DNA from: Ligula intestinalis | Taxonomy: Eukaryota > Platyhelminthes > Cestoda > Diphyllobothriidea > Diphyllobothriidae | Assembly: GCA_036362985.1 (NCBI GenBank) | Contig: JAYGXS010000006.1 | Location: 8,471,014 to 8,535,013, forward strand | Reading direction: 5' to 3' | Length of the DNA: 64,000 nucleotides | Shown: piece after piece, positions 1-56,549 of the stretch | Layout of the letters: each line of letters begins with the position of its first letter | Position numbering within the stretch: the first letter of the stretch is position 1 | The notes under the pieces: model-generated | Database searches by the model: none | The model's input: the letters and a program-made list of their open reading frames with translations, nothing else | What the model was told of the DNA's origin: nothing | Position numbers and translations under genes: made by a program

Positions 1-639
1 ATTTTGTGCCATAAAATGCAATAATTAATTGCTATGACAAACATGTATTTCCACAGAGATAACTATTTGCGTAAGCTTGGCACAGAAACGGGAAGGCGCA
101 GTATAGGTCCTTTTTTTGCTATTGGTATGTGTCTCCGGGATGTAGGGTCAGCATTTATGTGAAGCTGATTTTGTGCACTTACGAAAAATGGCAGCCGAAG
201 AGCTGGCGTGTTATTCATTAGCCAACATGTTTGATTTGATCAAGTGCAACTGTATCCCGAATGATATCCAATTTAACAGTGCCTATAAGGAAGAATCCTG
301 GGCCAAAAGCGGTCAACAACAAAGAAAGATGACGATTTTATTCGTCGAACATCAAACATATACACTTATATGCCCATTACCGCTATTAAAAGGAAATGTT
401 TTTATATGTTCTTTCGGACCCTTGCTGGGAAACGAATGTGGGAATTAAGCCTTAATTAGCAGATGGCAACGGTTAAGCCATTTTTATTTAACAAACATAG
501 AAAGCAACGTTGACTATTTACACAGGAAGACAATCGTCACAGTAATTCATTTTGGAAAAAGCATTACCTTCTAGGATTAAGTACTGTTCTTAGATAAGTC
601 CACAAAGTCAGCACATACGGTCATTTGCGGAAAGAACTT

Positions 640-870
640 TCCCTTAGAACATACTGCTTTGATATCAATCTTCAAGAACAGTCGACGTCTCGTGGTTTTG
701 ATGGCGATCAATTTCGGTGAGCGACCAATCTGACATTCGACGAACGAGAACATTAACAGTTTCGTTTATGTCAACATTGCCAAAGATACATTTCGTTATA
801 TTGACATTTGAAGGCATCGAATGGATACTATTATACAACAAGACATTGCAATTGCTCACAAATTCACGGA
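640..870 (+). pseudogene. Tc1/mariner transposase fossil (left unit copy)
   Basis: The plus-strand translation gives a block around LVVLMAINFGERPI, then an in-frame stop, a degenerate middle with a second stop, and a tail RMDTIIQQDIAIAH. In Tc1/mariner transposases a VMVWGAI-like block precedes the second catalytic Asp in a QQDNAxxH motif. Here the Asp is present but the following Asn is Ile. The same block occurs in the copies at 48065-48285 and 55477-55740, where the least decayed version keeps QQDNASAH. Only the central part of the DDE/D domain is visible. The N-terminal DNA-binding region, the first and third acidic residues and terminal inverted repeats were not found. It cannot be functional. 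Confidence 0.65.
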
Positions 871-1799
871 GGTATGATCATAAGTAAGCTAACCACTATA
901 CGCTTTTTTTAAAAACAACAGCCAGCCTTTCTGCACGCGGCCTGCGAACAATTTTTAGGCCGCCAAATAGTCCCGAGCCCATTCCAAATGAAAATATATT
1001 TGCCTTAATCAAGCAAAACTGGCGCAAGCCTCAAAAATCGCTTTCAATTGAAAATAAATTGGCGTTCTTTTTTTGATAATTATATAGAGTAATACACAAT
1101 TGACATCATAGTTGTATATATTTCCTCCCGAATTGCTGCTGAAATACACGCAAAAGGACACTCAACAAAATACTAGTATGCTACCTTTTTATAAAATTTT
1201 TTCGTTTTGTCTTTTGATTTTATTTTATCTCAATTTTTTTCATTTATATAACGACTTTTTATCCAGGGCGTTACTAACTGCACCTTTTTTGGATTTGCAT
1301 GATCAACGGCGACAACTGTACGTTGAACACAACTAAGAGTTCACTAGCGCAATAAAATTGATGACTGCTAACCGATCTAGGATAAATAAGAAAATTCATG
1401 GATGCCAATTTATTGATACCGGAGCTGGTGAAGGCCCGTGCATTGTGATCAAATGCAAAGAAATATATAAATATATATTACGTTTTCCGCATTTAATAAA
1501 GGTACTTTATGTAGATGTGTATTCTGCCGGCTCTGCTAAGTTGGTTGGTTACATTTAACTGATTTGAGCGAAACAGTGATAAAAAAACTGTAGGTCGACT
1601 AGTAGCACACAAAACAAGGAATAATATGGTTTCTGTAATAAAGCGGCAAAACGTTAAAGCGTGCTTAAAGTACAACCACAAAATTAGTTTTAGATCTAGC
1701 ACTTTTTACAGTTAATTTTGCTCACTCATTAAATATGAAGGGTACATAATTTCGAGCTTCGCAAATAAAAAACACCAGATTGACAGTTAAGTCAGTGTG

Positions 1800-2065
1800 C
1801 GAATTGTTATGACTAAGAATAAAATTCTGTATTTCTTTGGCGATTTATATCCACATTCCTTACATTTTTCGGTTCTGAGTTACTAAAGAAAACTACTGGA
1901 GGAGAAGGCGAGAAGTAGCAAAGAAGTTGGCTGGGATAATAGGTTCATTTGCCGGTTGTTTCGGCATCCTCTACTCAATTGCTTTTTGAGACCAGGATGT
2001 TCGCTTGTATTCGCAGAAAGAGTGTTGGCTATCATGCGAAATGAATTAAATGGATCCGCAGTCTT
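1800..2065 (+). pseudogene. Small membrane-segment ORF, broken copy
   Basis: This is the left-unit counterpart of the open frames at 46906-47157 and 53710-53982. The frame reads IHIPYIFRF, a stop, then VTKENYWRRRREVAKK followed by LAGIIGSFAGCFGILYSIAF and another stop. The glycine-rich hydrophobic stretch would form one membrane helix, and the preceding Arg/Lys-rich stretch would sit on the cytoplasmic side. Two stops break this copy. No family is recognised with confidence. The basic stretch followed by a Gly-spaced helix is only loosely reminiscent of the second membrane segment of DEG/ENaC channels, but the diagnostic GxS motif is absent. Confidence 0.3.
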
Positions 2066-5000
2066 CCCTTGGATTTGAACTATTTAATAGCAAAGTGTTT
2101 GTTGTTTATTTAAATGATGAAAAGAGTCCCTAAATGCTCCCTTAAATACATTGCTTCAGCGACTATTTCAAGAGAAAGCGAACAAAATAATGAGAAGCTT
2201 ATTTGCATTAGTTCATAAAAAATACCAATTTACTTAATCAATCACATAAAGCTATATAACCTTCTATTCGGCCTCGATCTATGAGGGTTTTTTGAAACTA
2301 ATAACCGCACATAGGTTTGACGGAATGCCTATGACAAGTGCACCTTTTGCATTGCATAGATTATGCATAAGACAAAAGAAAATGCTTATATTTGAAGGCC
2401 TGTTAACACGTTTGTAGACCGATGATTTAAATGTTCAAGCAATCGCAGACAATAACGTAATATTTATGTGCATCTGTTAAGTAAATTTAACTATTTGGAA
2501 AACTAACCATTGGCAAGTGAGAAGATATTAATGCACTATATTATACTATCAATAATGTTGTTACTAAAGATAAGCGAAATAGGCAAATGTATGCTGACAT
2601 GAATCACAGCATAACTTTTAATAATTACAAAGCATTTTGTTGAAATTTTGTGGAAGAATGGATGCCATAGAATGTTTACAAATGAGCAGATTGTGAAGCC
2701 ATGACGTGAATAAAAACAATCCATTATTTACTTTTCGCCTGCGCACGTGCAATACAATATGTCTGTTTGCATCTGAGGCAAGTAGGGTATGGCATTTGTT
2801 TGTCAAGCACATAGTAGAATGACATGGCGACAAAAAAGTCAAGTCATGTGATCAATGGAGCAAAAAGTATTTCTTGAGGAAAAATCACAGTTGCTTTAAA
2901 TGATACTATTACGAGAGGTGAATTTAATAAATTGACGTACTGGCAAATACACGCATCTAAATGCAACTCACGGAACCTGCAACAAACCATCACGAAATCC
3001 AAAGTAATTGGTGTTGCCAAAATTTAAATAAAACATCAAATCTGTTTTGTCTACAGTAAAACGTTTCATTGGCAGAAAGACCTGAACAATCGTAAAGCCA
3101 TATTTCCGTAAATGGGTTATATTATAAAACCAAATAGACCAAAGTATGAAAACGTTTTGATATAACCTGATACCACAGAACACAAATATATCATAAATGG
3201 CACAACGAGCTTCACCGAGGTTGCCTTCGTCTACAGATTACTCCCCTACAGTTAAATGTGCTTACCTACGTACAACAAAAACAACATACTCCTCAGGCTT
3301 ATGCTAATTCGCACATGCAGATGGATGTGATCCAAGAGGAAAAAGTATCCTTATCATCAGAGTACGGGAAACTCCTCCTTACGCATGGAGCATCCCTGCT
3401 GCTAAGATTCGTGGCATGGCTTAGTCAAAGCGTCATTGTAAAAGTTTGCTGGCCAAATTTCCTTTAACAGAAAACAGTGAGGTTTGAACTTGACTAATCC
3501 AAATTAACCCCAGTGGGTACAATTTCTCGCCCCTCCGTTTGATGCAAACGTGTTGATCCAGAAATGTTCAAAATCCGAATTTTAGGGGTAACGTAATATT
3601 CATAAATTGCCGACAGACAGTCTGCAGTAAAGCGTACTTGTATACCATTTCCGCATGTCACTGATGCCCGAGTTTAGGTTCTGTTCTTTTTTATATGCAC
3701 AAAGCCAAATTCAGAGCTGCTAAATTGTTTCTTAGCAAAGGAAGCTTTAACCAACGTTGAATAAATCAGTCCGTAGCAATTGCGGTTTTATGCATAATAT
3801 TGTGAAATTTCTCTAAAGCTAATTGGCCCTAATTGACATTACAATTTTCAATCTACGTCTACTTAAGTTTTTAAATCTGTACTATAAATGAAAACCCATC
3901 TTTTAATGAATTCAAATTACGCTGTCTACCAAAACAAACAAATATTTATGCGAAATACTGGCAGCTTGCAATTTCATGGCGTCATAATAAACACGTAAGT
4001 CCCTCTACCTGAAAATAGCACTTTCGGTATGTGAAATGTTACAGCCTATATATGAAATGGATTGATATGGGCTGTACGATGAAAATGCGTGCGCATATAC
4101 CTGCAAGTAGCTTTTTGAGTTTTAGTTTTCTTACACAGGTAGCCGAACATTGACAGTTTAATTAATAAATCACTTAAGCAATTTGCCTAGCTCAATAATG
4201 ATTACACGCCAAGCATTTATGGAATCGCGTTAGGCGAAGAATATATTTCCTATTATTCATCATCGTACAAGTAAAATTATATAAGGGGATAAGTGTAGGG
4301 TAAACAATCACCTTGAGCAATTAGCTAGTAGTAATTTAGGTATATATATCTCAAGGGATAGAAGAGGTGAACTTTATTCATATAAGAGTGTACTTGTGCG
4401 AGGGAAAATATGAGAAATTAGTCCACCAATTACCTAAAGTGGCCCAAATTCCTGTTTTGTTGGAGGCGTGAGGACGTTATTATTTATGGTCTGGCAACGG
4501 CGTGATGGGTAGGCTTATATTAGTGACACAAGGTTGATGGACGTTAATCAAATTTACAACACAGAAGGCGATAATTAAGAGGCTAAAGTTACCTAAAAGT
4601 AACAAAATTCAGATACGCTCAAGCAACAGGGCAGAGTCCACCACGGTTTGCATAATGCTAACAGTTCAAAGCTTGTATGCGACCGATACGTTATATTTAT
4701 TATTTTTCTATCATGCAAATGAACGTTTGGTAACATGAGAACTTAAACCGATTCAGCATTATATAGTCCCTTTTAACTTAGGTAACACATTTAAATTTAT
4801 CGAGTTCTACAGAATTACAAATACCAAAAGGGTAAAAATATAATTTTAAGATGCCACGCCTACGTTCACAGAAGTCCCCATATAATAAACCGTACACATT
4901 TTATGTGACAATCTTGTTGAACGACACTTTCCAATCGGCCGGCCAATTAGGACAATTGCTGCTTATCTGCTCGCTTGACGCGTGATGAAGCATTTCTTAC

Positions 5001-5388
5001 CAAGTTGCCAGCCAAATCGATTAACCTAAATTAGTTGGCGTTCATGGGCAAACTGTAGCGCAAATACCTCTTTCCTATTATGCAATATATGTTGTTCTAT
5101 GCTGAATATGTTGACGATACTTTTATTATAGCACGGATGACATGAATTGGGACACGAGTTGGGAATTCTTCTCGATAAAGTGGATCAGATCCACCTAACT
5201 GTTATTTTTGCTGTTGCACAAAATTAGATAGTGCCTATTCTTGTTGGGCGCCCTACTCACTATAAGATATGATGAAAAAATAAAACGTGGACTTCATACA
5301 TTTCCATAGTTTTTTTCAAATAAGTAAAACGAGGCACCGCGCGCGGGCTCAATGACGTAGCCAGAAGTGTATGTTCTCCAGAAACATT

Positions 5389-5571
5389 TCAGAATAAGCT
5401 CAATCCTCTGAAAACACCACAATCATAGTTTTCTCCCATCCTAGGCATGCAGGTTCTAGCCTGTTGGTGGCGTTGAGTTCGACAAGCAGGTAGAAGGAGA
5501 GCAGGAGGGGCGTTGTCAGCGTCGGCATACGTAGAAAATTGAAGTGTCTGTTCTGACGAAACGGTATTCAC
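5389..5571 (-). other. Short ORF shared with the 49.1 kb unit copy, unknown
   Basis: A 60-codon minus-strand frame containing TYADADNAPPALLLPACRTQ and ENYDCGVFRG. The plus-strand frame at 49066-49359 in the sister unit encodes the same segments with few changes, and both are open. No domain is recognised. Conservation of a 60-codon frame between two ~90% identical repeat copies is weak evidence of coding. In the sister copy the upstream frame differs, because ~200 bp present here are missing there. Confidence 0.2.
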
Positions 5572-6249
5572 TGGGGTAGTGGGCTAGGGTAAGCAGACTG
5601 TGGCTACGAGCGTATTTTGACATCAAAGACTTGGTTTTGCTAGCCTGATTGCCACTGCCTCTGCTGTAGCTAACACCCGCTTTTGCAGCCCTTTGGAGTA
5701 GTATGTTAGTGTGAGGTACAAAACTCGAAAGGCTTTTCTCGCGTCCGCTTGGTGGTTGGTATCAATGAGGTTTCAGTTATGTTTATAACCAGAATTGGAA
5801 ATAAATCTTCGTTGATTCTCCGAATCAACCCCATACCCTGACCATTCCCGCATCTGGAACTAACTGTCAAGACAGAGACAAGAAGCCCGGATAACGTACC
5901 GCAGATGGTATGCTCGAAAAAACATGGACTACATTTTTATAAAAGTGAGCTCAGGTTGACGGAATCACGGAACAATTCCACTTTTTCATATTTTTCCTGC
6001 TCCTCTGTGATGTTTTGTACCATAAAATGCAATAATAAATTGGTATGACAAATATTTATTGCCACGGAGAAAAATATTAGCGTAAGCTTGACCCATATCT
6101 GGATTCCTTGCCAAAATGAAAAGGCTAGAATCAATGGCTCAACCATCGAGTGTTGCTATGTTATAGGTTTGCTTTGTAGGCGACACATTTGTTGTAAATG
6201 AAATGATCATCTTGAATCACTCAACAAGACCATCAACTTTACCATTTTG

Positions 6250-17089: not shown

Positions 17090-19735
17090 ATTGCCACTTA
17101 ATTTTTAATAAAAGTGTTCACTAATTGGCACGTATGTTAAAAAGGTGCATAGTAAGTCAGCAGTTATTTTTCCTCAAGAGTAAACTTGAAAGTGATATTG
17201 AGTCGCGAATAATTACGCCACCAGAATTTCATACTTTTCGTTCGGACGGAAAATCCTTATCGAGCAGTAGAGGTAGTGGAGTGGCAGTCTGTGTAAACCA
17301 GCAATGGTACACAAATTGTAAGTCCCTATTTTCCTATTCAGATAAGTTAAAAGATGACATTGCTGTAGTCTGTAAGCCTCGATTTTTACAAAATTCTAAA
17401 AGCAGCATCTATGCTAGCATCTATATTCCCCACTTTGAATGCCAAAGCGCGTAAGGGCGTTTTTTTTATTTTTTTCCTTAAACTTGACCTATTGACCTGT
17501 GAATATGTTATTGTTTTGTGTGTTGACTTCCCCCGTGTGAATTTACGCCCACGTACATTGTTAGGTTTTGACGACCCAGGTCTTTCAACACTCGTTCTTA
17601 TGACCCCAATTGATCAGCGTTTGACGAATTTTCCTTAACTTTTTTGCCATCACAAATAGAGCGTCGTTGTCAGGGTCAAATCACACTGTTTTATTGGGTC
17701 TGCCAACCATGTATTGTGGTTTTAAGAAAGGACAGTTAGCAAATCTGAGAGGAAAACTGAAGGTTCGTGCCGTGTTCCCACAGAGTATATATTTCCTTCT
17801 GACCTACATATCTGAAAACCTTCCTGCACTTCTTGAACAATTTAACGCCGAGTCGTGCTCCAATTTTCTCACAATTTTTTCAAATGAAATTTTTACTTTA
17901 TTTTTTTCCCTTGATAATTTCATGGTTAGACGTGACATAATATCTTCACCCTATCTAAAAACGTTGAGACGCCAAAAAGTTATTGTTCTGAAAACTAGGT
18001 CTACGAGATAGACGAACGGGTGTGAACGTTCTAATAAAGCGTTAGATTTCCAGGATGAATGACCTTTTGTTAATTAAATTTACTTCTTCTGCATCTTCCT
18101 GTTCTCTCTCCTCGGATGAAATTTTAAAAGTCTTAAGTATCTCACTGGTCAACGCAGCAAACTAGCACATGTGCATGCTGACATAGATTGAGATCGTTGA
18201 AATACAGACTTTATTCACACTCCCACTGCCTTCCGTCTTCAGACAGACACCATTTCCTATTACCAACTGTCTTTGTTTCTGTGTCTCTGAAAGCAGTGAT
18301 AACACATCTTAAAAGTTTCGAGGTTCAACAGCTGCTGGAACAGAAAGGATCTAACTATTTCTCCTGCAATCCTGTTCTTTTTAGTTAGCACCTGCATTGG
18401 CAAACCTCATCAACTTGTCCTTCAAGAAGTATAACATTCCTGATGAGTGGCAATCAGTGAGAATCAATTTAATCCCGAAAAAACCTTCTCCTTCGGGTTA
18501 TATATCTTTTCGCCCGATTGCCTGCTCTTCTGCACTATTAAAACTTACTAAAACGAGTCACTTAAGACATCATCATCCCGTTTTTCTGCAATTTTCCCAA
18601 GCCCTTGCAATATGCGTATAAGGCTAGGCGTAGCACACTGTTATAATTTCAGTCCACTCTGCTCTTAGAGATTTACGTTAGGGCTACCGCGCATATGGCT
18701 GTGCTTTTCTTGACAAATCATCAAACTATAATCCGATCCCGCGCCATATACTTCTTAATAAAATCTCTGCATGCGGCTCTCACAGCTGGGCTGTGTCTTT
18801 CCTCGGGGACTATTTTACTTTCTGCACTCAATTCGTTCAGTGCGGAAAGCGAAAATCCATGGTCCCTCCCAACAACTGTGGAGTTCTTCTTGGGGCTATA
18901 TTATTTCCTCATCTTTTCTCCCTCCACACTGACAACCTACAATCACCAAACAAACGCTTGTTTGTTAAATATGCTGATGATATGGTTGTTGGTCATCCCT
19001 TGAAACGTTAGTCACATTTCCAAATACTTAACGATGACCTAGACCATGTGTCAACATTTTCGTTAGCAAATGGCCTTCTACTTAACGAGTTAAAGTCAGT
19101 TCAGTGCACTTTTGACTGCTACCCTCTCCTATTCCCTCTCCTATTCACATTCTGCACACCGAAGTATCCTCTTTTCGATACCTTGGTGTTAGACTAGCAT
19201 CCAACCTTACAATTTATCTATACAAAGAAGGCCTTTTTTTTATCAAAATCCGTAAATTTTACATTAAATCCGTCGCTTGCATACAAATAACACTTCGCAT
19301 GCCCTAATATGGCCTTTTGTAGATGCATGCTTTCTCCTTCTTATTCTTCACTGCTCTCCAGTTATTTTTCCAGCCTAACTTTAAAAAAGACGTAGTCATT
19401 TTGAAATAATGCTTTTAAATGCTCTCTTTAGCTGCCGGTAATTTCTGTGTTTTTTGTAGCTTACATTTTAATGCAGCGCCACTTTAAAACGGTCAATCAA
19501 TTTGGTGATCGCATCATTGATGAGGTCGCTCACCTTCTCTACTCTGAACTAATGACTGCGAAGTCTACCTGTCCCATGCGTCGAGGTTTCCGTCATATGT
19601 CTTGCCACACATCAGCATAGCAGCACTCGGCACTCCTATTCATAGCACACTACCTCACCTGTGAAGAAGCGGAAATCGAGAAGTTTAAAGCCGATCTCTC
19701 TCCAAAGTTGATGTGGATATCGTGTAAAAAATGAA
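17090..19735 (+). pseudogene. CR1-type non-LTR retrotransposon (LINE), decayed but nearly full ORF2
   Basis: Across frameshifts the translation follows an APE-endonuclease plus reverse-transcriptase ORF2. Endonuclease part: FHTFRSDGKSLSSSRGSGVA at 17230-17285, then DDIAVVCKPRF near 17360, and EYVIVLCVDFPRVN near 17510, corresponding to the II.GDFN.P..NW block. RT part: INLSFKKYNIPDEWQS at 18410 and INLIPKKPSPSGYISFRPIA at 18465 (the IPK...RPI motif). Near 18870-18990 come NNCGVLLGAILFPHLF and the catalytic KYADDMVVGHP, so the YxDD-type residues remain. The thumb ANGLLLNELKSVQ at about 19066 follows. A diffuse C-terminal segment runs to about 19.7 kb. CR1-type LINEs nick DNA with the APE domain and prime cDNA on the nick. 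Multiple frameshifts make this copy dead. No poly(A) or 3' microsatellite tail was seen. Confidence 0.8.
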
Positions 19736-19860
19736 TTGTGAGTATAACATGGCCTTTGATCTTTAACATGTCCCCTTATTTACCTTTGCTTTCCTCAAAT
19801 GGATCGTTTTTGCTAAAAGTTCAGTTTTTATAAATCCTTAATATAGCATTATTCTTTTGC

Positions 19861-20260
19861 AACTATGCCGGTGAACACATCATATGTTGTTGTGGAAAAC
19901 GGTAAATTTCGCTATTTTAAACCAAATCTTCAATCAGCAAATTGTCTGAAGTATCATTTAGCGTCCGCTTATTCAAGTGGACCGCATATAATCGATAGTC
20001 AGGAGTCGGCCAGTGGCGTCTATGCAAATAAGCTGATCCAACTTGTGTTTAAGGGGCGATTCATCGTGGCTGCATACGGATAAACAGGCATGCAAAGACA
20101 TGGTATTTATGCCGCGGGAGGTTCATGTTGTTTATTTGTATGAAGGATACAAACTTTTTCGTGAAATTTATTCTTTGTCAACCGCTGCAGCAGAAAAACG
20201 TAATACTTAAGACAATTTTAGGATGTTTATTTCAAGTGCCCATTTTTCGGAAATGCAATT
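19861..20260 (+). repeat. Dispersed repeat family F, longest copy
   Basis: The clearest copy, directly after the LINE. It keeps a 72-codon open frame (19865-20083, starting MPVNTSYVVVENGKFRYF) that is broken in the copies at 8.5-9.9 kb. No protein family is recognised, so the frame may be chance. Family F copies lie on the same strand at 8484, 8935, 9535 and 16683. Confidence 0.6.
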
Positions 20261-20429
20261 TATACAAATGGAAATGCCTGGAAGTTATTAATCTCACATG
20301 CGAAACCTCGTTTTTGACACTTTACTGTGTTTTGCTATATCCTTCAATAAGTTGATGCACCATGAAAAACACCATTTCCTAAGTATATGGCTGAAGCGGT
20401 TATATATTTTTTTTACATAAGCCTTCCTG

Positions 20430-20690
20430 ATGATGATAACTGCTACAACCGTATCGGCAGTTGATATGTTTACAGCTTTATGGCCGCACAGAGAAGCGAC
20501 CGTCTTTTGATTGGCTTACCATTGTGTCAACATATTAAGGAAGATAACGCTTTTAGGCAAAAACACTATAAAAAGATGCCACTAATGACATAAAGGCTTA
20601 AATGTGACAGATTAAACAACACGGGCATCAAAACAATTAGACACTGCATTGGTGAATTCCAAATTATTTAGGCAAATATGCGGCCAGGTT
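20430..20690 (+). repeat. Dispersed repeat family H, copy 2
   Basis: Starts at TCCTGATGATGATAACTGCT and aligns with 14280-14665 with several indels. It sits just downstream of family F, but in the first locus F (8.5-9.9 kb) and H (14.3 kb) are separated, so F and H are probably independent or parts of one broken element. Confidence 0.5.
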
Positions 20691-20699
20691 TTGCCACAT

Positions 20700-21540
20700 T
20701 TGCCCGGTAATTCCTTATTGATAATATTTTATGTTTAAATATTTTGCACTATCTTCTTGAGAGAGAGTGATGCGCTTTTTCTTAATTTTTTTGGCGCGTA
20801 TCTTAAATTCATCGTAAAATCAGGTAAAACACATAAAAAAGTAGCCATTCCGCTTCATTTTACACCAAAAATCGGCAGCAGATTTTGTGGGCAGATTTAC
20901 AAGTTTCTTAGCATAGGTTGATTACATTTGTATTGATTAGGAACTATCTGTCAGTTTTAATCTTTAGTTTCGCCCGCATTCAAAATTGGCTTCAATCTGG
21001 AACTTGCGGTCTTTCGTGCATTGAAATTCTCATATCTATTACCGGATTGCATCCGGCTCTTCACTTTGACGAGAAGATGTAAATATATGTAAGAACATGC
21101 ACAACCTGTTTTACCAAGTGGTGGACTAAAAAGTCCCTGTCAAACTGTATGCTTTTAGCTGCTAACTGTTTAATATATTAATTTAAGCGAGTAAGGATTG
21201 ATTATTCAGTCACTAATGTGAAACTGTCAACGGTTAAATTATGACGTTGCTGTTGTCATCATGACAAGATAGTCGTGAAACATGCAACTTGTAGGCAAAG
21301 AAAGTATTCAAACAAAAACGTATGTTAAATAGGCGACTGAAAATACACGTTTTTTTTCCAGTGACAAAAGACGAAAAACGTTGAAAAGGCAAACATTCTG
21401 TCAAATTTAAACACTTGAGTCAGGCAACTGGATGAATTGTCTAGGTTTGCCTTATATCTTTCAGTCTGTTGAAAATGGATGTCAGTATCCTCGTAGCGTG
21501 ATTATGTTCCCATAGTTATTTTTTATGATCATTTCTGAAG
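20700..21540. other. AT-rich stretch, nothing recognised
   Basis: No motif-bearing frame was seen. It lies just downstream of the 3' end of the minus-strand PLE and may include its decayed tail. Confidence 0.4.
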
Positions 21541-21559
21541 TCGTTAGTCTGGTGGTATT

Positions 21560-22830: not shown

Positions 22831-23399
22831 GAAAAAGATGCTTCAAATTATCAAATGCTGCTTGTCGATGCATGCGCCAACAGCTTATACAGCGCGTAAG
22901 CCCGTAGATTAGTCGCTTGGTGCCGGAAGCTTTTGCTTCTTTTTATTCAGAGTAGTTGGTGAATAAACGCATTGGTAATTCAATCAGCAAATCTTTGAAC
23001 TTCTTTAAGTGTCGCTGCTGGAAAAAAACTAAATTTAAACAGAAAAACTAAAGCTTAAGTGAGTTTTCAGAGGATGACTGGATAAATCGAGCTGTGAAAA
23101 AGTGTCCGAAGAGTATAAGAGAATGAGAGATGTAAAAAATGCAGCCGTCCTTTCATCTCCGAAGTATAGCTTCAGATGCGTGACAAAAATCTAACCAATA
23201 ATTATACGATATCAGTTTGAACATGTTAAAGAAGAGTGTTTCAGTTTGACGACTAGTCGTTAGAGAAATGTCAAGCTATCTGAAAGGTGAAGGATGTATA
23301 GGCTTTTCTTCTTCCCGACTGCCTAATACATTTCCCACATACCATCTCACACTGCAAGGATGAAGTGGCCGTTATTCCTTACGGTTTGATTGAACAGTG

Positions 23400-24080
23400 A
23401 ATTTCAAATACTTTTCTACTTTTTTCAATACCAGAATAGCCATCAATAATCAACTTGCCTCAGCTTTATTTTCTAGCACTAAAATGCAGTGGTTCAAACA
23501 AGAAAGGAATACATCTTAAATTATCCACCTGAAAAGCTCATTTGTAGAAAGATAAAACAGTTGTTGGTAAGACGATAAAAACACAAATCGAACGGGAAGG
23601 TTCACCAAAAAAACATATTTTGAAATAAAAGATAGTGCAAGTTTTTTTCCTTCGACTAATGACCAGCCAAGTTTGCATCGGCCTCAGCCAATATGACTAA
23701 ATTGTGAATGGATCCACAAATACGGTTTTGCGTCCATAAAGACGTGGTAGCAAGGTTCTGCAGAAAACTGTGGAACGAAGTCTAGTCTTTCTAGAGGTGA
23801 TATGGAGAAATGAATATGTTAGGATGGCACAGCACTTGAACCGACACCCTTATCATTCTCCGGTCAAAACAGACAAATGAGCATGAAAAGAGGTAAGCGC
23901 ACGGTCACGAACAGGTGTGACCACAGATAATAACGCTGCCGAATTGTGCATTTCCTTGGGATGTGAGCCAGCATCTGGTAGCTGCCAAGATGGACCAATA
24001 AGGAGAAACAAAGTGGGCACGAACCGATTGCTTTGAAATGCGTGGGCGCACTCGGAAGGCGGAATTTGCAGCATGCAATA
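23400..24080 (+). repeat. Dispersed repeat family E, copy 2
   Basis: Aligns with 7380-7990 in the same orientation (landmarks given there). The purine-rich GAGAGAGAAATTGAGAG stretch near 24101 lies just beyond the shared part. Confidence 0.6.
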
Positions 24081-24084
24081 ACAC

Positions 24085-25245: not shown

Positions 25246-25253
25246 AAACTTAG

Positions 25254-25745: not shown

Positions 25746-25749
25746 TAAA

Positions 25750-45149: not shown

Positions 45150-46015
45150 TGCATTTAAGTTATTAAGACGTGATGCAATTAAATCAGCCCACTAAACAGC
45201 CATCTTCCGGGAAGGAATGACCTAATAAATCCAAACCCCTAAATCAACAAAGCAAATCCCGACTCAGATGTCGTACGATAAAGTCAATCCACCCATGGAA
45301 CTTAGCATTCAGGCAACCAGTTCAGGCATTCATTGTGTGCCTAACCATAATGTCGATTGATCATCATGCCACAAATTCCCAATATACGACCAGGGCGTGG
45401 AATTATGACAATTTTTTTCGCAAAACGTGATCTGCTGATGGACCCAGACATGTAGAAACCCGGAAATTACATCAGATTAATGCTGTTTTCATGTGCCTTT
45501 ATCAGTGTCATTATCTTTGGCTGTATGTGAGTATGAAGTCCTGCGTAAATTTGAAGCGCTATGCTTAAACACTCAATGCTTTAGCGATCCTATCTTTACT
45601 TATTTTAAGATGATACACAATCGAGGAACTTATCTCATTTGACATGCCACATTGGCAGTTTGTAGTCAGGCGATAATCTAGCTGAGTTTTCGTTCAATCA
45701 ATAAAGATATAATATTTGAAGTATTCTGCGAGATAAAGGTTAATTATAGGAAAATGCCAATCTGTGATCCTACCTAGAAGTGCAAATTATTTTAAACAAT
45801 GCATATAACCAATAACTGCAAACGATTATGTTAATTAATATGATTGTTAAATTATTTGGCGTTCTCATATAGATGGATTCAATGGCCTAGTTTGCTGCCA
45901 CACGCAATGCATATCAAGTTTTGAAAATATAACTATATGAGCGGGCTCAATGATTAAAAAACACATTGGCCGTACGCTTAGGATGGCTCCTCAAAAGTTC
46001 AGTCAGTGCAAATGC
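45150..46015 (+). repeat. Module C, copy 1
   Basis: Aligns over its whole length with 56805-57650 (same strand). Landmarks are AATAAATCCAAACCCCTAAA, GACCAGGGCGTGGAATTATG, CGTGATCTGCTGATGGACCC and a CCTCAAAAGTTCAGTCAGTG end. A shortened copy lies at 58840-59480. Module C here ends at about 46015, where the tail of the ~6.0 kb unit's half B begins. No coding capacity recognised. Confidence 0.75.
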
Positions 46016-46905
46016 CGAAAATCCTATTGAACTGCGCATGCGCAGGCTCAAGGTTAATGAAAGATGCTTTTTATTCACGTCATGGCTTTGAGGTTTAGAA
46101 AAATACTGAAGACGCATCAGGCGTTATTAAAATTCTGAAGTGCCAGCAAAATAAATCACAGTATCGGTTGCATAATGTGTGATTGCTGAACATGATACAG
46201 AACCGTTAACGACGCTTTCAATTTATTTTTTATCCTTTTACTGTTAATTATTTTCTGGTATCAGGATCTGCTCATTTGTGAACATTCTATGTCTTCCATT
46301 CTTCCACAACGTTTCAAAAAATGCTTTGTAATTATTCAAAGTTATGCTGTGATTCATGTCAGCAAACATTTGCCTATTTCGCTTATCTTCAATAACAACA
46401 TGATTGATAGTATAATATAGTGCATTAAGATCTTCTCATTTACCCATGGTTAGTTTTCCAAATACTTCGATTTACTTAACAGATACACATCAATATTACG
46501 TTATTGTCTGTGATTGCTTGAACATTGAGGTCATCAGTCTACAAACGTGTTAACATGCCTTCAAATATAAGCATTTTCTTTTGTCTTATGCATAATCTAT
46601 GCAATGCAAAAGGTGCACTTGTCATAGGCATTCCGTCAAACCTATGTGCGGTTATTAGTTTCAAAAAACCCTCATAGATCGAGGCCGAATAGAAGGTTAT
46701 ATAGCTTTATGTGATTGATTAAGTAAATTGGTATTTTTTATGAACTAATGCAAATTAGCTTATCATTATTTTGTTCACTTTCTCTTGAAATAGTCGCTGC
46801 AGCAATGTATTTAAGGGAGCATTTAGGGACTCTTTCATCATTTTAATAAACAACAAACACTTTGCTATTAAAACATGCAAATCCAAGGGAAGACTGCGGA
46901 TCCAT

Positions 46906-47157
46906 TTAATCCATTTCGCATGATAGCCAACACTCTTTCTGCGAATAGAAGTGAACATCCTGGTCACAAAAAGCAATTGAGAAGAGGATGCCGAAACAAC
47001 CGGCAAATGAACCCATTATCCCAATAATCTTGTTTGCTACTTCTCGCTTTTTTTGCCAGTAGTTTACTTCAGTAACTAAGAACCGAAAAATGTAAGGAAT
47101 TTGGATATTAATCGCCAAATAAATGCAGAATTTTATTTCAGTCATAAAGATTTGCAC
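46906..47157 (-). other. Small membrane-segment ORF (83 codons), unknown
   Basis: Open minus-strand frame with INIQIPYIFRFLVTEVNYWQ, KKREVANKIIGIMGSFAGCF and GILFSIAFCDQDVHF. One predicted membrane helix spans about residues 43-65, preceded by a Lys/Arg cluster. The counterpart at 53710-53982 is also open, while that at 1800-2065 has two stops. The protein is not recognised. It could be a relic exon of a host or element gene carried inside the unit. Confidence 0.3.
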
Positions 47158-47610
47158 ACTGACTTAGCTGTCAATGTGGTGTTTTCTATTTTCGAAGCTC
47201 GCAATTATGTACACTTCATACTTATTTAATGAGCAAAATTAACTGGAGAAAGTGATAGATCTAAAACAAATTTTGTCGTGGTACTTTAGGCATACTATAA
47301 CTTTTTGCCCGCTTTTTTACAGGAATCATATTAGCCCTGGCTATGTGTGCTTCTAGTCAACCTACATTTTTTATATCACTGTATCGCTCAAATCAGTTAA
47401 ATGTAACCAAGCAACTTAGCAGAGCCGGCAGAATACACATCTGTATAAAGTACCATTATTTTATCGGAAAATGTAATATATATTTATATATTTCTTTGCA
47501 TTTTATCACAATGCACGGGCCTACGCCAGCTCCGGTATCAATAAATTGGCATCCATTAATTTTCTTATTTATCCTAGATCAGTAAGCGATAAAAAGTAGC
47601 ATACTTGTAT

Positions 47611-47858
47611 TTTGTTGAGTGTTCTTTTGTGTGTATATCAGCAGCAATTCGGGAGGACATATATACTTCTTTGATGTCAATTGTGTTTAAGTCTATAAAA
47701 TTTTGTTGAGCAATTCGGGAGGACATATATCCTTCTTTGATGTCAATTGTGTTTAAGTCTATAACATTTTGTTGAGTGTTCTTTTGTGTGTATATCAGCA
47801 GCAATTCGGGAGGACATATATACTTCTTTGATTTCAATTGTGTTTAAGTCTATAATAT
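47611..47858 (+). repeat. Three-unit minisatellite (91/66/91 bp) inside half A
   Basis: Units start with TTTGTTGAG at 47611, 47702 and 47768. Units 1 and 3 are 91 bp. Unit 2 is 66 bp because ~25 bp (the TGTTCTTTTGTGTGTATATC segment) are missing. The sister copies at ~1110-1170 and ~55160-55265 have a single unit, so the expansion is specific to this copy. A minus-strand frame (47837-47574) stays open through all three units, repeating NTIDIKE.YMSSRIA. Confidence 0.9.
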
Positions 47859-48064
47859 TATCAAGAAAGAATGTCAATTTACTTTTAATTGAAAGCTATT
47901 TTTGAGGCTTGTGCCAGTTTTGCTTCATTAAGGCAAATAGATTTTCATTTTGAATGGGGTCGGGACTATTGGGCGGGCTTAAAAATTGTTCGCAGGCCGC
48001 GTGCAGAAAGGCTGGCTGTTGTTTTAAAAAAATAAGCTTATATAGGTTAGCTTACTTCCGTGAA

Positions 48065-48285
48065 TTTGTGAGCAATTGCAATGTCTTGTTGTATAATAGT
48101 ATCCATTCGATGCCTTCAAATGTCAATATAACGAAATGCATCTTTGGCAATGTTGACATAAACGAAACTGTTAATGTTCTCGTTCGTCGAATGTCAGATT
48201 GGTCGCTCACCGAAATTGATTGCCATCAAAACCACGAGGCGTCGGCTGTTCTTGAAGATTGATATCAAAGCAGTATGTTCTAAGG
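48065..48285 (-). pseudogene. Tc1/mariner transposase fossil (middle unit copy)
   Basis: Minus-strand translation gives RRLVVLMAINFGERPI, a stop, a degenerate middle, a second stop, and RMDTIIQQDIAIAH. These are the same stops and the same Asn-to-Ile change after the Asp as in the left copy (640-870). Only the second Asp region of the DDE/D domain is visible. Inactive. Confidence 0.65.
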
Positions 48286-49065
48286 GAAAGTTCTTTCCGC
48301 AAATGACCGTATATGCTGACTTTGTGGACTTATCTAAGAACAGTACTTAATCCTAGAAGGTAATGCTTTTTCCAAAATGAATTACTGTGACGATTGTCTT
48401 CCTGTGTAAATAGTCAACGTTGTTTTCTATGTTTGTTAAATAAAAATGGCTTAACCGTTGCCGTCTGCTAATGAAGGCTTAATTCCCACATTCATTTCCC
48501 AGCAAGGGTCCGAAAGAACATATAAAAACATTCCCTTTTAATAGCGGTAATGGGCATATAAGTTTATATGTTTTATGCTCGACGAATAAAATCGTCATCT
48601 TGCTTTGTTGTAGACCGCTTCTGGCCCAGGATTCGTCCTTCTAGGCACTGTTTTATTGGATATCATTCGAGATACAGTTGCATTTGATCAAATCAAACAT
48701 ACTACCTAATGAATAACACGCCAGCTCTTCGGCTGCCATTTTTCGTAAGTGCACAAAATCAGCTTCATATCAATGCTGACCTTACATCCCGGAGACACAT
48801 ACCAATAGCAAAAAAAGGACCTAAACGGCGCCTTCCCGTTTCTGTGCCAAGCATACGCTACTAGTTATCTCTGTGGCAATACATGTTTGTCATAGCAATT
48901 TATTATTGAATTTTATGGCACAAAACATCACAGAAGAGCAGAAAAATATGAAAAGTGGAATTTTTCCGTGATTCCGTCAACCTGAGCTCACTTTTATAAA
49001 AATTTAGTCCATTTCTTTTCGAGCATACCATCTGCGGTAGGTAATCCGGCCTTCTTGTCTCTGTC

Positions 49066-49359
49066 TTGACAGCCAGTTCCCGATGCGGGAATGGTCAGAG
49101 TATGGGGTTGATTCGGAGAATCAACGAAGAATTATTTCAATTTCTCGTAGCCGCAGTCTGCTTACCCAAGCCTACTACCCCAGTGAATACCGTTTTGTCA
49201 GAACATACACTTACAATTACTACGTATGCCGACGCTGACAACACCCCTCCTCCTCTCCTTCTCCCTGCTTGTCGAACTCAACGCCACCGACAGGCTAGAA
49301 CCTGCATGTGTCAGATGGAGGAAAACTACGATTGTGGTGTTTTCAGAGGAATGAGGTAA
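49066..49359 (+). other. Short ORF shared with the left unit copy, unknown
   Basis: 97-codon frame; its C-terminal 55 codons (VNTVLSEHTL, TYADADNTPPPLLLPACRTQ, ENYDCGVFRG) match the minus-strand frame at 5571-5389. No domain recognised. The N-terminal half does not correspond in the left copy, because ~200 bp were lost here. Confidence 0.2.
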
Positions 49360-52054
49360 TTCTGAAATGTTTCACGAGAAGATACACTTTTGGCTTCTTC
49401 ATTGAGCCCACACGCGCGATGCCTCGGTTTTCTTAGTTGAATGAAACTATAGGAATGTAAAAAGTCCACTTTTCATTTTTTCATCATACTCTATAATGAG
49501 TAGAACGCCCAACAAGAATAGGCACTACCTGTTCTTGTACAGCAGCAAAAGTAACAGTTAGGTGGACCTGATCCACTTTATCGAGAAACATTCCCAACTT
49601 TTGTTCCAGTACATGTCATTTATGCTATAATAAAAAAGTTTCGTCAACATATTCAGCATAGGACAGCATATATTTAATAAAAGGAAAGAGGTAGTTTCGC
49701 TTCAGTTTGCCCATGAAGACCGGCTAATTTAGGTTCATTGATTTGGCCGGCAACTTGGCAAAAAATGCTGAAGTACGCGTTCAGCGAGCAGATAAGCAGC
49801 AATTGTCCTGCTTGGCTGGCCGATTACGAAGTCTCGTTTAACAAGCTTATCACATAAAATGTGTTTAAGTTCTGTGAACGAAGGCGTGACATCTTAACGT
49901 TATATGTTTTCTCATTATGATTTGTAATTCTGTTGAACTGGATAAATTTAAAAGTGTTCTCTTAGTTAAGTGGGACTATTTTATGCAAAAATTGTTTTAA
50001 GTTATCATGTAAACGAACGTTCATTTGCATGCTAGAGGAATAGCAAATATAGCAGATCGGTCGCCTTTGAATCTCTGTATTGTGAATATAATGTAAATTT
50101 GTTAGACTCTGCCCTGGTGTTTGAGCATTTTTTTAAATTTATTACTTTATGGATGCTTTAGTCTTTTATTTATTAGCTTTTTTGTTCTGGATTTGATCAA
50201 CCTCCGTCAACCTTTTGTCACTTATATTAGCCTAGCTATCACGTTATTACAAGGCCATAAATAATAATGTCCTCATGACCATAAAAAGACAGGAATTGGG
50301 GCCATTTGAAGTAATTTGTAGACTATGTTTGCGCATTTTCTCCTGCACAGGGAAACCTATATATGAATAAAATCCACCCCTTCTATCGCTTGAGATATAT
50401 ATTCGTAAATTACTTCTAGCATATAGCTCATGGTGATTTTTTACTCTACCCTTATCCTTTTATGTAATTTTACTTGTACGATGACGAATAATAAGAAATA
50501 TATCGTTGGCCTAACGCGATTCCTTGATTGCTTGGCGTGTAATCATTATTGAGCTAGGCAAATTGTTTAAGTGATTTATTAATTAAACTCTCAATGTTTG
50601 GCTACCTATGTAAGAAAACTAAAACTCAAAAGGCTACTTGCACGTATATGCGCAGGCATTAACGTCTAACAGCCCATAGCAAGCCATTTTATATATAGGC
50701 TGCAACATTTCACATACCGAAAGTGCTGATTACAGGTACGGGGACTTACGTGTTAATTATTACGCCATGAAATTACAAGCTGCCAGTATTTCGCATAAAC
50801 ATTTTGTTTGCTTTGGAATACAAAGTTATTCGACTTCCTCAACGATGAATTTATATTTTAAGCACAGCTATACAAACGTAGGAAGACGTAGATTGAAAAT
50901 TGTATTGTTCATTAGGACCAACTAGTTTTTAAGAGAAATTTCATAATATTTTGCATAAAAACCGCAATTTCTACGGACTGATTTATTCAACGTTGGTAAA
51001 ATCTTCTTTTGCAAAGAAAACAGTTAGCAACTCTGAATTTGGCTTTGTTTAGTTGAAAAAAAAGAGAAACTTAACTCAGGCGTCTGTGACATGCGCAGGT
51101 GGAATACAAGTACACTATACTGCAGACTGTCTGTCGGCAATTTATGAATAATACATTGCCCATAAAATTCGGATATTTGAACATTTCTGGTTCAACACGT
51201 TTGCATTATAACGAAGAAAACTCTAGAATTAATTCCCTGGAAGAGAAAACGGATGGGTGAGAAAATGAACCCACCGTGTTTAATTTGGATTAGTCAACTT
51301 CAAACCTCACTGTTTTTAGTTAAAGGATATTCAGCCAGCACAATTTTACAATGACGCCTTGACTAAGCCATGCCACAAATCTTAGCAGCAGGGATGGTCC
51401 ATGCTTAGGAAGGAGTTTCCCGTACACTGATGATAATGATACTTTTTCCTCTTGGATCACATCCATCTGCATATGCGAATTAGCATAACCCTGAGGAGTA
51501 CGTTGTTTTGTTGTACGTAGCTAAGCAAATATAACTGTATGGGAGTTATTTGTAGACGAAGGCAACCTCTGTGAAGCTCGTTGTGCTACTAATGATATAA
51601 ACTTGTCTTCAATGGTATCAGGTTTTATCAAAACGTTGTCATACTTTAGTCTTTTGATATCGGTAATATAAATCTTTTACTTTAATATGTCTTAACGAAT
51701 GTTCACGTCTTTTTGCAAATGCAACACTTTCATGTCGACAAACAAATTCGATGTTTTATTTAATTTTTTGCAACATTAAATACTTTGTGAACGGGTGGTT
51801 TGTTACAGGTTCCGTTAATTGCATTTCGACGTGGATATTCGCTAGAACGTCAATTTATTTAATTCACCTCTCGTAATAGTATCATTTAAGCAACTGCGAT
51901 TTTTTCCTCAAGAAATACTTTTTACTTCATTGATAACATGACGTGACTTTTTTGTCACCATGTTATTCTACTATGTGCCTCACAAACAAATGCCATACCT
52001 TGATTGCTCCAGATGCACAAAGACATATTGCATTGCACGTGCGCAGGCGAAAAG

Positions 52055-52064
52055 TAAATAATGG
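52055..52064 (+). repeat. 10-bp target-site duplication, left
   Basis: TAAATAATGG immediately before the foldback element, repeated exactly at 52878-52887. It is present once at the empty site in the left unit (reverse complement at 2721-2730). Confidence 0.75.
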
Positions 52065-52257
52065 ATTAGAAGTCAGTTTTTGGCAAACAATTGTTTTCAG
52101 CAACTCTTCAACAGACCAAACATTTGCAAGGGAAATTGACGCTGTACATAACAATAAAAGTTTGAATAGGTAGAAAAATCAATAACTATCTAACACGGGC
52201 GCTAATTGGCCAACGCGGACTATGTCAGTATGCGCATGTAGGCCATGTCAGCGTGTT
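52065..52257 (+). repeat. Foldback left arm
   Basis: Begins ATTAGAAGTCAGTTTTTGGC and ends CATGTCAGCGTGTT at the gap. Confidence 0.9.
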
Positions 52258-52657
52258 NNNNNNNNNNNNNNNNNNNNNNNNNNNNNNNNNNNNNNNNNNN
52301 NNNNNNNNNNNNNNNNNNNNNNNNNNNNNNNNNNNNNNNNNNNNNNNNNNNNNNNNNNNNNNNNNNNNNNNNNNNNNNNNNNNNNNNNNNNNNNNNNNNN
52401 NNNNNNNNNNNNNNNNNNNNNNNNNNNNNNNNNNNNNNNNNNNNNNNNNNNNNNNNNNNNNNNNNNNNNNNNNNNNNNNNNNNNNNNNNNNNNNNNNNNN
52501 NNNNNNNNNNNNNNNNNNNNNNNNNNNNNNNNNNNNNNNNNNNNNNNNNNNNNNNNNNNNNNNNNNNNNNNNNNNNNNNNNNNNNNNNNNNNNNNNNNNN
52601 NNNNNNNNNNNNNNNNNNNNNNNNNNNNNNNNNNNNNNNNNNNNNNNNNNNNNNNNN
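52258..52657. other. Assembly gap (400 N)
   Basis: Run of N at the centre of the inverted repeat. Frames spanning it are artefacts. Confidence 0.99.
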
Positions 52658-52850
52658 AACACGCTGACATGGCCTACATGCGCATACTGACATAGTCCGC
52701 GTTGACCAATTAGCGCCCGTGTTAGATAGTTATTGATTTTTCTACCTATTTAAACTTTTATTGTTATGTACAGCGTCAATTTCCCTTGCAAATGTTTGGT
52801 CTGATGAAGAGTTGCTGAAAACAATTGTTTGCCAAAAACTGACTTCTAAT
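52658..52850 (-). repeat. Foldback right arm
   Basis: Reverse complement of the left arm with three substitutions, so it is not a simple mirrored copy of the same read. Confidence 0.9.
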
Positions 52851-52887: not shown

Positions 52888-53709
52888 GATGTTTTTATTC
52901 ACGTCATGGCTGCTATGTTTTCAAAAAAATGAAGACGCATCAGGTGTAATTCCACATTCTTAAGTGCCAGCAAAATAAATCGTAGTATCGGTTGCATAAC
53001 GTGTGATAACTGAACATGATACAGAACAGTTAACGACGCTTTCAATTTATTTTTTATTATTTTTACTGTTAATTATTTTCTGGCATCAGGATCTGCTCAT
53101 TTGACAACATTCTATGGCATCACATTTCCCACTTCATTTCAAAAAAACGCTCTGTTATTATTAAAGGTTACGCTGTGATTCATGTTAGCATACATTTGCC
53201 TAGTTCGCTTATCTTTATTAACAACATGATTGATAGTTTAATATAGCGCATTAGGATCTCCTCATTGGCCCATGGTTAGTTTTCCAAATAGTTCGATTTA
53301 CTTAACAGATGCACACAAATATTACGTTATTGCCTCTGATTGCTTGCACATTTAGGTCATCCTTCTACAAACGTGTTAACATGCCTTCAAATACAAGCAT
53401 TTTCTTTTGCCTCATGCATAATCTATGCAATGCAAACGGTGCACTTGTCATAGGCATTCCGTCAAAACTAGGTGCAGTTATTAGTGTCAAAAAACCTTCT
53501 TAGATTAAGGCCGAATAGAAGGTTATATAGTTTTATGTGATTGTTTGAGTAAATTGGTATTTTGTAATAACTAATGAAAATTATCTTATCATTTTTTGTT
53601 CGCTTTCTCTTGAAATAGTCGCTGCAGCAATGTATTTAAGGGAGCATTTAGGGCCTCTTTTCATCCTTTAAATAAACAAAAAACACTTCGCTATTAAAGC
53701 ATGCAAAGC

Positions 53710-53982
53710 CTAGGGAACACTGTGGATCCATTTAATACATTTTGCATGATAGCCAACAATCTTTCTGCGTATCAAGTGAACATCCCGGTCAAAGGAAGCC
53801 ATTGAGAAGAGGATAACGAAACAACCGGCAAATGCACCCATTATCCCAGCCATCTTGTTTACTACTTCTTGCTTTCTCCGCCAGTAGTTTTCTTCAGTAA
53901 CTAAGAACCGAAAAATGTAAGGAATGTGGATATTAATCGCCAAATAAATGCAGAATTTTATTTTAGTCATAAAGATTCGCAC
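53710..53982 (-). other. Small membrane-segment ORF (90 codons), unknown
   Basis: Open frame with KFCIYLAINIHIPYIFRFLV, NYWRRKQEVVNKMAGIMGAF and AGCFVILFSMASFDRDVHL. The Gly-spaced hydrophobic helix and preceding basic cluster are as in 46906-47157. The start Met and open frame are kept, although flanking sequence varies. Unrecognised; see the left and middle copies. Confidence 0.3.
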
Positions 53983-54376
53983 ACTGACTTAGCTGTCAAT
54001 GTGGTGTTTTCTATTTTCGAAGCTTGCAATTATGTACACTTCATACTTATTTAATGAGCAAAATTAACTGTAGAAAGTGCTAGATCAAAAAAAATTTGTC
54101 GTGGTACTTTAGGCATACTATAACTTTTTGCCCGCTTTTTTACAGAAATCATATTAGCCCTGGTTATGTGTGCTTCTAGTCAACCTACATTTTTTATATC
54201 ACTGTATCGCTTTAATCTGTTAAATGTTACCAAGCAACTTAGCAGAGCCGGCAGAATGCATATCTACATAAAGTACGATTATTTAATGCGGAAAACAAAA
54301 TATATATGATTTTGTTTTTTATCACGTTGCACGGGCGATCGCCAGCCCCGGTATCAATAAATCGGCATCCAAGTAC

Positions 54377-54940
54377 AAAGTTGTGTAACAATCGCAGGTA
54401 ACGGAATGGATTTGTTCGATTGAGGTGCGACTTGTTTACGCGCGAACCTGGGATGAGTGAAAATGACCAGTGCCCATTCCTTTTAACTGCTGACCTTTCC
54501 CGCAGTCCCAGAATTAGCTCTATTATGCGTTCTATACAGTCTCTCCTGTTTTTAACTGGCTCTCATCATGCCTTCCCACAGCTGGCTGAAACTATGCCCA
54601 TCCAACGACTCCGGCTTCCAATCCTCTACCTGCAGTTGCAACGTGCTTTGTTTTTTCCACCCGTTATATACCTTTTTTGGCAGTAACGCTCTCTATCCAG
54701 ACGCCGTAACTTGTCCTCATGTACATTCCTTTCCCCCTAGATATTCTCTCCTTATTGCTCTTAGTACATGCTTAACCTTCGTCACAGACTTACCGTCTTT
54801 TATCGTATGTATGCGTTGTGACGACTTTGAAAGTTCCGTTCAGACCTGCCTTAGACCGAACTTACCACCGAAATTCGATGTTACGCAGTGTAAACCGGCT
54901 ATCTCAAAACCTCGATTACATAGGAGCATTACATTAACGA
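54377..54940 (+). mobile_element. Unclassified ~0.56 kb insertion in the third unit copy
   Basis: The flanks GGCATCCA (left) and ATTAATT.TCTTATTTATCC (right) are contiguous in the middle copy at about 47550 and in the left copy near 1370-1405, so these ~560 bp are inserted. The insert is pyrimidine- and C-richer than its surroundings on the plus strand. It carries overlapping frames at 54420-54686 and 54568-55068, the second running out into the unit. No motif is recognised and no clear target duplication was found. It may be a LINE fragment. Confidence 0.5.
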
Positions 54941-55476
54941 TCATTAATTATCTTATTTATCCTAGATCGGTAAGCAGTCATCAATTATATTTCGGTAGTG
55001 TACTCTTATGCGTGTTCAAAGTAAAAATTGTCGCCGTTGATCATGCAAATCCAAAAAAGTGCAGTTAGTCCGGTTGTGGATAAAAATTCGTTATATAAAT
55101 GAACAAAATTGTGATAAAATAGAATCGAAAGACAAAACAAAACAATGTAATAAATAGGTTACATACTTATATTTTGTTGAGTGTTATTTCGCTTGCATAA
55201 CAACAGTTATTCGGGAAGACATAGATACAAATATGTTGTCAATTGTGTTTTAGTCTATATAATTATCAAGAAAGAACGCCAATTTATGTTCAATTTAAAG
55301 CTTTTTTTAGGCTAGTGACAGTTCAACTTGATTAAGGCGAATGCATTTTCATTTCGAATGGGGTCGGGACTATTGGGCGGGATAAAAATTGTTCGCAGGT
55401 CACGTGCAGAAAGGCTGCTTTTTGTCTTAAAAAAACATTTTAGTCGTTAGTTAACTTATAATGAAACCTCCTTTGA

Positions 55477-55740
55477 TTAGTGAGCAGATGCATTGTCTTG
55501 TTGTATAATAGCATCCATTCGAAGCCTTCGAATATCAATATAACCAAATACATCTTTGACAATGTTAAAAAAGACGAAACGGGTAATGTTTTCTTTCGGC
55601 AACCGCCAGGTTGGTCGCTCACCAAAATTGATCGCCATCCACACAACGAGGTGTCGACTGTTCGTGAAGATTGATATCAAAACAGTCTGTACTTTGGGAA
55701 AGTTCTTTCCGAATATGACAGAAGGAAATGCTTTTTCCAA
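55477..55740 (-). pseudogene. Tc1/mariner transposase fossil, least decayed copy
   Basis: An 87-codon open frame ending in RLRMDAIIQQDNASAH. The HLVVWMAINFGERPT block upstream matches the VMVWGAI strand of Tc1/mariner DDE/D domains, and QQDNAxxH contains the second catalytic Asp. Unlike the left and middle copies it has no stop in this stretch and keeps the Asn. The first and third acidic residues and the DNA-binding domain are not found, and the frame ends right after the motif. Inactive remnant. Confidence 0.75.
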
Positions 55741-56549
55741 AATGAATTACTGTGACGAATGTCTTTCTTTGTAAAAAGTTAACATTTTTTAATATTTTTA
55801 TTACTTAAAAAAGGGCTTAACCGTAGCCATCTGCTGATTAAGGCTAAATTGTCTCATTCGTATCCCAACTAGGGTATGGATGAACATTGAAAAATAATCC
55901 CTGTGAATAGTGATAATGTACATATAAGTGTATATTTTTAATGCTCAAACAAATAAAATCATCATCTAGCTTTGTTGTAGACCACTTTTGGCCCAGGATT
56001 CTTCCTTTTAGTCACTGTTTAAAGGATATCATCTGCTAAACAGTTGCATTTGATCACACCAAATATACTAGCGAATGAATAACGCGCCAGCCCTTCGGCT
56101 GCCTTTTTTTGTAAGCAAATAAAATCAACTTTACATAATTACTAAACTGACATTGTGGAGGCACATACTGATAGCAAAAAAGGACCTATATTTCGCCTTC
56201 CCAATTGTTTACCAAGCTAAAAGTAATTGTTATCTCTGCGGCAATACATGTTTGTCACGCTAATTTATTATTGCATTTTATGGCACAAAACATCACAGAA
56301 TAGCAGAAAGAATATTAAAAAGTGGAATTTTTCCATGCTTCTGTCAACCTGAGTACACTTTCATCTTAAAAATTTCTGACAGAGATATGTTCCATACCTT
56401 TTTCGTTTATTTTGGAGTTCCCTAATATTATAATGCGCATGAATAAAAATTAAGTTCTGTCTTAGATAAAAGCAAGATAATTTATTTTGATATGAAACTA
56501 CTGAAATAAGCGCAAATATGTTTTTCCATTTCTCATTATGAATTTAATA

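Follow-up and report, generated by a model that had tools for sequence, protein, structure and literature searches.

A likely old and decayed cluster of local segmental duplications carrying transposon relics in Ligula intestinalis

Organisation of the two loci

The window analysed here is a 64,000-nucleotide stretch of Ligula intestinalis DNA (C6:8471014-8535013, GC ~37%), to which we added 80 kb of upstream and 60 kb of downstream flanking sequence, negative coordinates denoting positions upstream of the window; the assembly searched comprises 644,354,889 bases in 2377 contigs. Self-alignment delineated a unit of ~6.0 kb with the order S-D-A-B-E, common to positions 1-6092 (minus strand) and 46.0-56.4 kb (plus strand) (Table 1). 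The left locus consists of the minus-strand blocks 6090-5788, 5610-2718, 2701-1399 and 1400-2, and the right locus of the plus-strand blocks 46063-47587, 47589-49148, 49144-52067, 52888-54371 and 54942-56375, the main left/right blocks sharing 77-93% identity over 0.3-2.9 kb, which is far above chance (lowest E-value, 0). These alignments reproduce the orders given in a first-pass annotation of this DNA, namely, B-A in the left locus (minus) and B-tail, A, B, A in the right locus (plus). The annotation had also described both junctions as contiguous in at least one place, and we found that B-E|S-(D)-A runs without a gap in both loci and that A-to-B is gapless in the left locus. Since the right A-to-B2 join is broken by the 52068-52850 insertion with its 400 N, the contiguous A-B order is documented by the left copy. 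This left locus continues into another copy, as positions 2-79 are a direct repeat of 6013-6090 (87% identity) and the upstream DNA continues to -499: beyond the left E, which ends at -49, S recurs (-66..-233), with part of A (-228..-425) and 58 bp of B (-442..-499) behind it and N thereafter. Position 56375, previously taken as the right-hand end, does not stand as such, because the homology goes on: 54942-58749 and 59101-65930 match -12844..-16699 and -17413..-24270, respectively, in inverted orientation (80-87%, ~11 kb), and this match stops 7 bases short of a 13 kb N run.

We found no coding content in the unit, which is probably without function as a unit. As had been stated before, long ORFs are missing: the longest ATG/GTG/TTG frame in both loci, with frames running through an N run set aside, has 166 aa (54568-55068), lies mostly within an insertion and has no Pfam match. 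A candidate coding exon in B (53713-53988, minus) was rejected, as the other two copies carry stop codons there and no family reached the cut-off. No RNA family was detected at gathering scores in the window, and a single sub-threshold tmRNA match in 44900-59600 is put down to chance.

Table 1. Parts of the left and right loci, in window coordinates (R-U1 and R-U2, first and second units of the right locus)
Feature	Position	Strand	Evidence
Left full unit, E (dead Tc1/mariner element)	1..1320, on upstream to ~-49	minus	genome search, family alignment, Pfam, tree
B core, left unit	1321..2717	minus	self-alignment; no near-full copy found elsewhere
A core, left unit	2718..5421	minus	two near-full copies in the assembly, this one and 49.3-52.1 kb
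D, dispersed repeat, perhaps 3' end of a Penelope-like element	5422..5771	minus	genome matches; motif seen by eye
S, segment opening the unit; second site at 58668-58840	5772..5943	minus	self-alignment, junction alignment
Tail of E from a third tandem copy, truncated, with the E|S junction where it ends	5944..6092	minus	self-alignment, junction alignment
X1, copy of 56799-57646, adjoining truncated B1	45161..46008	plus	self-alignment
B1 of right locus (R-U2), 5' end cut	46020..47588	plus	self-alignment
E of R-U2, with 66-bp tandem duplication at 47643-47776	47589..48976	plus	alignment
Right E|S junction and S	48977..49148	plus	junction alignment
Truncated D and A of R-U1	49149..52067	plus	self-alignment
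Insertion with inverted arms of 193 bp (98.4%) and 400 N in the middle (52258-52657)	52068..52850	plus	self-alignment
B2 of R-U1	52888..54371	plus	self-alignment
570-bp insertion, missing from left copies	54372..54941	plus	54371 and 54942 adjacent in left copies
Last bases of B, then E of R-U1, the E copy of the window that extends furthest 3'	54942..56551 (approximate)	plus	alignment
Y-X-Z-S-Y'-X'-W, continued right arm, inverted match to upstream arm	56552..64000, homology to 65930	plus	alignment

Local and dispersed parts of the unit

We searched the assembly with the parts of the unit separately. The A search, in which 40 of 170 candidates were scored, returned three local rows (100%, 82% and an 85% fragment), and its other 37 rows cover D only. 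The B search, with all 15 candidates scored, returned five local rows, of which three are near-full, and 10 rows elsewhere of 40-51 bp. Near-full copies in the 644 Mb assembly thus number two for A (among the 40 of 170 candidates scored) and three for B, all at this locus, although copies collapsed in the assembly would escape these counts. That the bulk of A and B was found only here argues against a macrosatellite and against a mobile 6 kb unit or circle. Low copy number in otherwise non-repetitive sequence of >1 kb, as found for the A and B cores (A with 40 of 170 candidates scored), is expected of a local segmental duplication, and the homology runs through transposons and apparently unique DNA alike, as can be seen from the A-B-E alignment, the 11 kb inverted match and the co-copying of E. 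The 10 short rows of the B search all lie at a ~50-bp word of B (1967-2017), which recurs across the genome at 84-90% identity.

Judged from its sequence, E is a dead Tc1/mariner element dispersed genome-wide. A genome search with positions 1000-2000 gave at least 45 rows (40 of 156 candidates scored), eight within the cluster and 37 elsewhere, and all 37 of the latter fall in positions 1-299 of the query, i.e., in E; E was matched in all 20 of these places that we fetched. Of these 20 loci, 14 have a match to the left E that ends within 15 bases of -49, and 18 have one that ends within 10 bases of 1297, the latter end being favoured because the loci were picked by a match near 1297. The first-pass annotation had named one fixed pair of ends shared by all genome-wide copies as a finding that would speak against its reading, and this holds for the E part alone. 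Positions -49 and 1297 are where the local E copies are cut or carry a deletion, and the E family itself extends beyond both. The family alignment (17 rows: 15 dispersed loci and two local copies) reads as a degenerate Tc1/mariner transposase, and its consensus has TIR-like ends, TACAGTAGTCGCC / GGCGACTACTGTA. The earlier statement that terminal inverted repeats are lacking therefore needs a qualification for E. HTH_Tnp_Tc3_2 (PF01498) scored above the cut-off in two of five ORF pieces from E relatives (E-values 1.9e-8 and 1.6e-7), and DDE_3 reached 0.051, below the cut-off, in one of the five. We take LQDNAPAH and PPNSPDLNPIENIF in the E family to be DDE-type remnants. E resembles Tc1/mariner transposons in these family ends, domain matches and remnants; it differs from them in that the local copies are truncated passengers of a duplication and in that the copies read are broken.

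An unrooted tree of four local and 15 dispersed E sequences, which left out five of the 20 fetched loci (L026, L033, L037, L041 and L042, the contigs of the last two being 99.96% identical), set the dispersed sequences apart with a UFBoot value of 100. Within the local set, the left-second and right-second units were joined at 100, and these two formed a group with the left-first unit at 99. That the local copies group apart from the 15 dispersed ones suggests that the transposon was copied with the locus; most likely, E entered the ancestral locus once and was then copied with it. With the dispersed E sequences as the outgroup, the right-first unit would have split off first and the left-first unit next, leaving the two second units as the last to separate.

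Another dispersed repeat of the unit is D, which may be the 3' end of a Penelope-like element. It matches 37 other genome rows (40 of 170 candidates scored), and three fetched copies align with it at ~82% identity. Relatives of D at two dispersed loci, L012 and L043, bear a motif, recognised by eye, that presumably corresponds to the GIY-YIG end of Penelope-like elements. No match to the Pfam GIY-YIG or RT families or to any PDB entry was found for the D relatives. At L012:4000-7200, there are clustered direct and inverted copies, putatively Penelope-like, without Pfam confirmation. Tandem arrangement is a further point of likeness, as Penelope-like elements with pseudo-LTRs are described as being in tandem or partial tandem (PMC11167929). 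However, D makes up just ~350 bp of the unit, and A, B and E showed nothing of the Penelope type. A pLTR-ORF-pLTR arrangement with an internal RT was not found, there being no RT match in the scanned pieces of at least 90 aa in both loci, and no hammerhead ribozyme was matched in 44900-59600. A Penelope tandem as the explanation of the whole unit was rejected, since it fits D alone. An LTR retrotransposon was rejected as well: direct end repeats exist (2-79 / 6013-6090), but they belong to the tail of E, the mariner relic, and no retroelement domain was found in the scanned pieces (at least 90 aa) of A and B.

Junctions, divergence and assembly

The three E|S joints (5943/5960, -49/-66 and 48976/48993) have one and the same breakpoint, which supports a head-to-tail duplication. 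S occurs with another upstream flank at 58.6 kb and at -16.7 kb. The bases at the breakpoint are CTTTCAT and CTTCTAT in the longer E copies, CCTTTAT and ATTTTAT in S with its own flank, and CTTTTAT or ATTTTAT in the three joints. E and S are thus alike there over no more than a few bases, in a short and imperfect match, and any microhomology at the junction would be weak. A single breakpoint shared by three junctions is as expected of one ancestral tandem duplication, and the simplest reading is that one such joint arose and was then copied along. Later deletions differ: S runs into A at the left second joint, but into the middle of D at the right joint. With three junctions at one breakpoint, the order of events can be traced.

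The divergence between the left and right copies is uneven. K2P between the left and right second units is 0.06-0.09 for B, E and the junction, while left-right K2P reaches 0.18 in A, 0.20 in both the first-unit E and the X-Z flank, and 0.135 and 0.208 in two parts of W. Such uneven distances, 0.06 to 0.21, are not what one simple inverted duplication gives. Windowed identity ranges from ~73% to 98%, with one window at 57% across a segment absent from the right copy. Within B, the two U2 (second-unit) copies share a run of 19 variable sites (permutation P 0.0002) and the two right copies share one of eight sites (P 0.017), and in E a run is common to the two left units (P 0.001); these are the three of 12 run tests with P below 0.05, uncorrected for the 12 tests, the other nine having no significant run. 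This pattern suggests sequence exchange between the copies.

N runs lie upstream of the window at -50600..-50501, -34934..-34535, -11778..-11679 and -599..-500, and from position 1 onwards at 36662-36761, 52258-52657, 65938-78933 and 102486-102585. The round sizes of most of them, and the same 47 bp on either side of the run at 102486-102585, point to assembly gaps. The left arm is broken by the runs at -599..-500 and -11778..-11679, and the piece between them, -11678..-600, matches 28599..17595 in inverted orientation over its whole length (96.6%, K2P 0.035). Since this match ends exactly at the contig ends, as that of a misplaced haplotig would, the piece is a probable misplaced haplotig. 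In addition, the piece from 36762 to 38384, directly after a 100-N run, is an inverted copy of 30615-28985 (93.6%, K2P 0.067). The annotation had allowed that its junctions might coincide with assembly joins. This is not so for B-E|S-A; it applies in part to A-to-B2, which spans the 400-N run, and to the relation between the loci, which hangs on the join at 36662-36761. As the opposite strands of the two loci depend on this join, in a region cut by N runs and holding a probable misplaced haplotig, their relative strand is not secure and is the weakest part of the finding; the inverted layout could partly be a scaffolding product. The region is a good place to check the assembly for misplaced haplotigs.

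Origin of the cluster

We consider it likely that the two loci are an old, decayed local cluster of segmental duplications at one C6 site, tandem and, as assembled, inverted, with transposon relics. Such a cluster is an ordinary kind of genome rearrangement, and is neither a satellite array nor an integrated circle. Local segmental (low-copy) duplications, both tandem and inverted, are made by replication-based or end-joining mechanisms. The cluster resembles them in having few copies at one locus, in direct and inverted orientation, with mosaic identity and carried transposon relics; unlike in these, the similarity at the junction is short and imperfect, the copies are much decayed and the layout is partly hidden by N. 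In the proposed course of events, a mariner element (E) would have inserted once into the ancestral locus, and a break in E would then have been joined to S by template switching or end joining, giving the tandem duplication. A longer stretch would subsequently have been copied in inverted orientation, its left and right flanks now differing by a K2P of ~0.2. Later exchange between copies, by duplication or gene conversion, may have produced the patchy identities of 73-98%, and deletions and new insertions (52068-52850 and 54372-54941) would finally have broken up the copies.

Haplotypes can leave false duplications in assemblies. We give a minor but real chance to an assembly artefact, in which the two loci are haplotypes (or collapsed paralogues) of one locus, placed in opposite orientations by scaffolding. 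The N runs between and within the loci, the full-length inverted match of the N-bounded piece -11678..-600, the end of the right arm match 7 bases before the 13 kb N run, and the same 47 bp on both sides of the run at 102486-102585, as expected of an unclosed contig overlap, are all in its favour. However, the arms differ by K2P 0.06-0.21 and carry different insertions, above the 0.035 of the probable haplotig, and the tandem E|S junction lies within gapless sequence at both loci, so that the duplication as such remains. Less likely still is a reading in which a larger inverted-repeat amplicon, with arms that would exchange by gene conversion and further copies that would be hidden in the N runs, shows only partly as the present cluster; if this were true, the cluster would be comparable to the palindromic amplicons of sex chromosomes.

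The first-pass annotation had favoured a macrosatellite or an integrated circle, and neither interpretation is supported. A head-to-tail 6 kb array, mostly collapsed in or missing from the assembly, is very improbable: a kilobase unit arranged head to tail, one junction seen three times, the third, truncated copy at 5944-6092 and arms ending at N runs are in its favour, but in place of many head-to-tail copies there are two near-full A and three near-full B in 644 Mb (40 of 170 candidates scored for A), the non-transposon part was found at this one locus, and the B and A copies are strongly diverged (K2P 0.09-0.18), unlike a homogenised array. Hardly any weight is left for permuted copies derived from an integrated circular molecule of ~6 kb. 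The B-A order at one place and A-B at another are on its side, but no circle is needed to explain this order, since tandem duplication suffices; the flanks common to both loci are longer than the unit, and the searches found no A-B copies at other sites, such as a circle might have left (A: 40 of 170 candidates scored). When raw sequence is all that is read, a decayed segmental duplication can thus pass for a satellite or a circle.

Other repeats lie nearby. An inverted repeat of ~550 bp (41458-42006 / 42522-43079, 92%) is GC-rich and has overlapping frames of 125-234 aa, with no Pfam match in the three of four frames scanned and no protein relatives for the one searched. An inverted pair at 16.8-20.3 kb / 24.1-26.0 kb consists of decayed LINE-like pieces, with a reverse transcriptase match (PF00078) at 18682-19008 (E 3.6e-6, below the cut-off). 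Single arms of the 52068-52850 insertion also occur at two of the dispersed loci, L027 and L035, at 87-92% identity.
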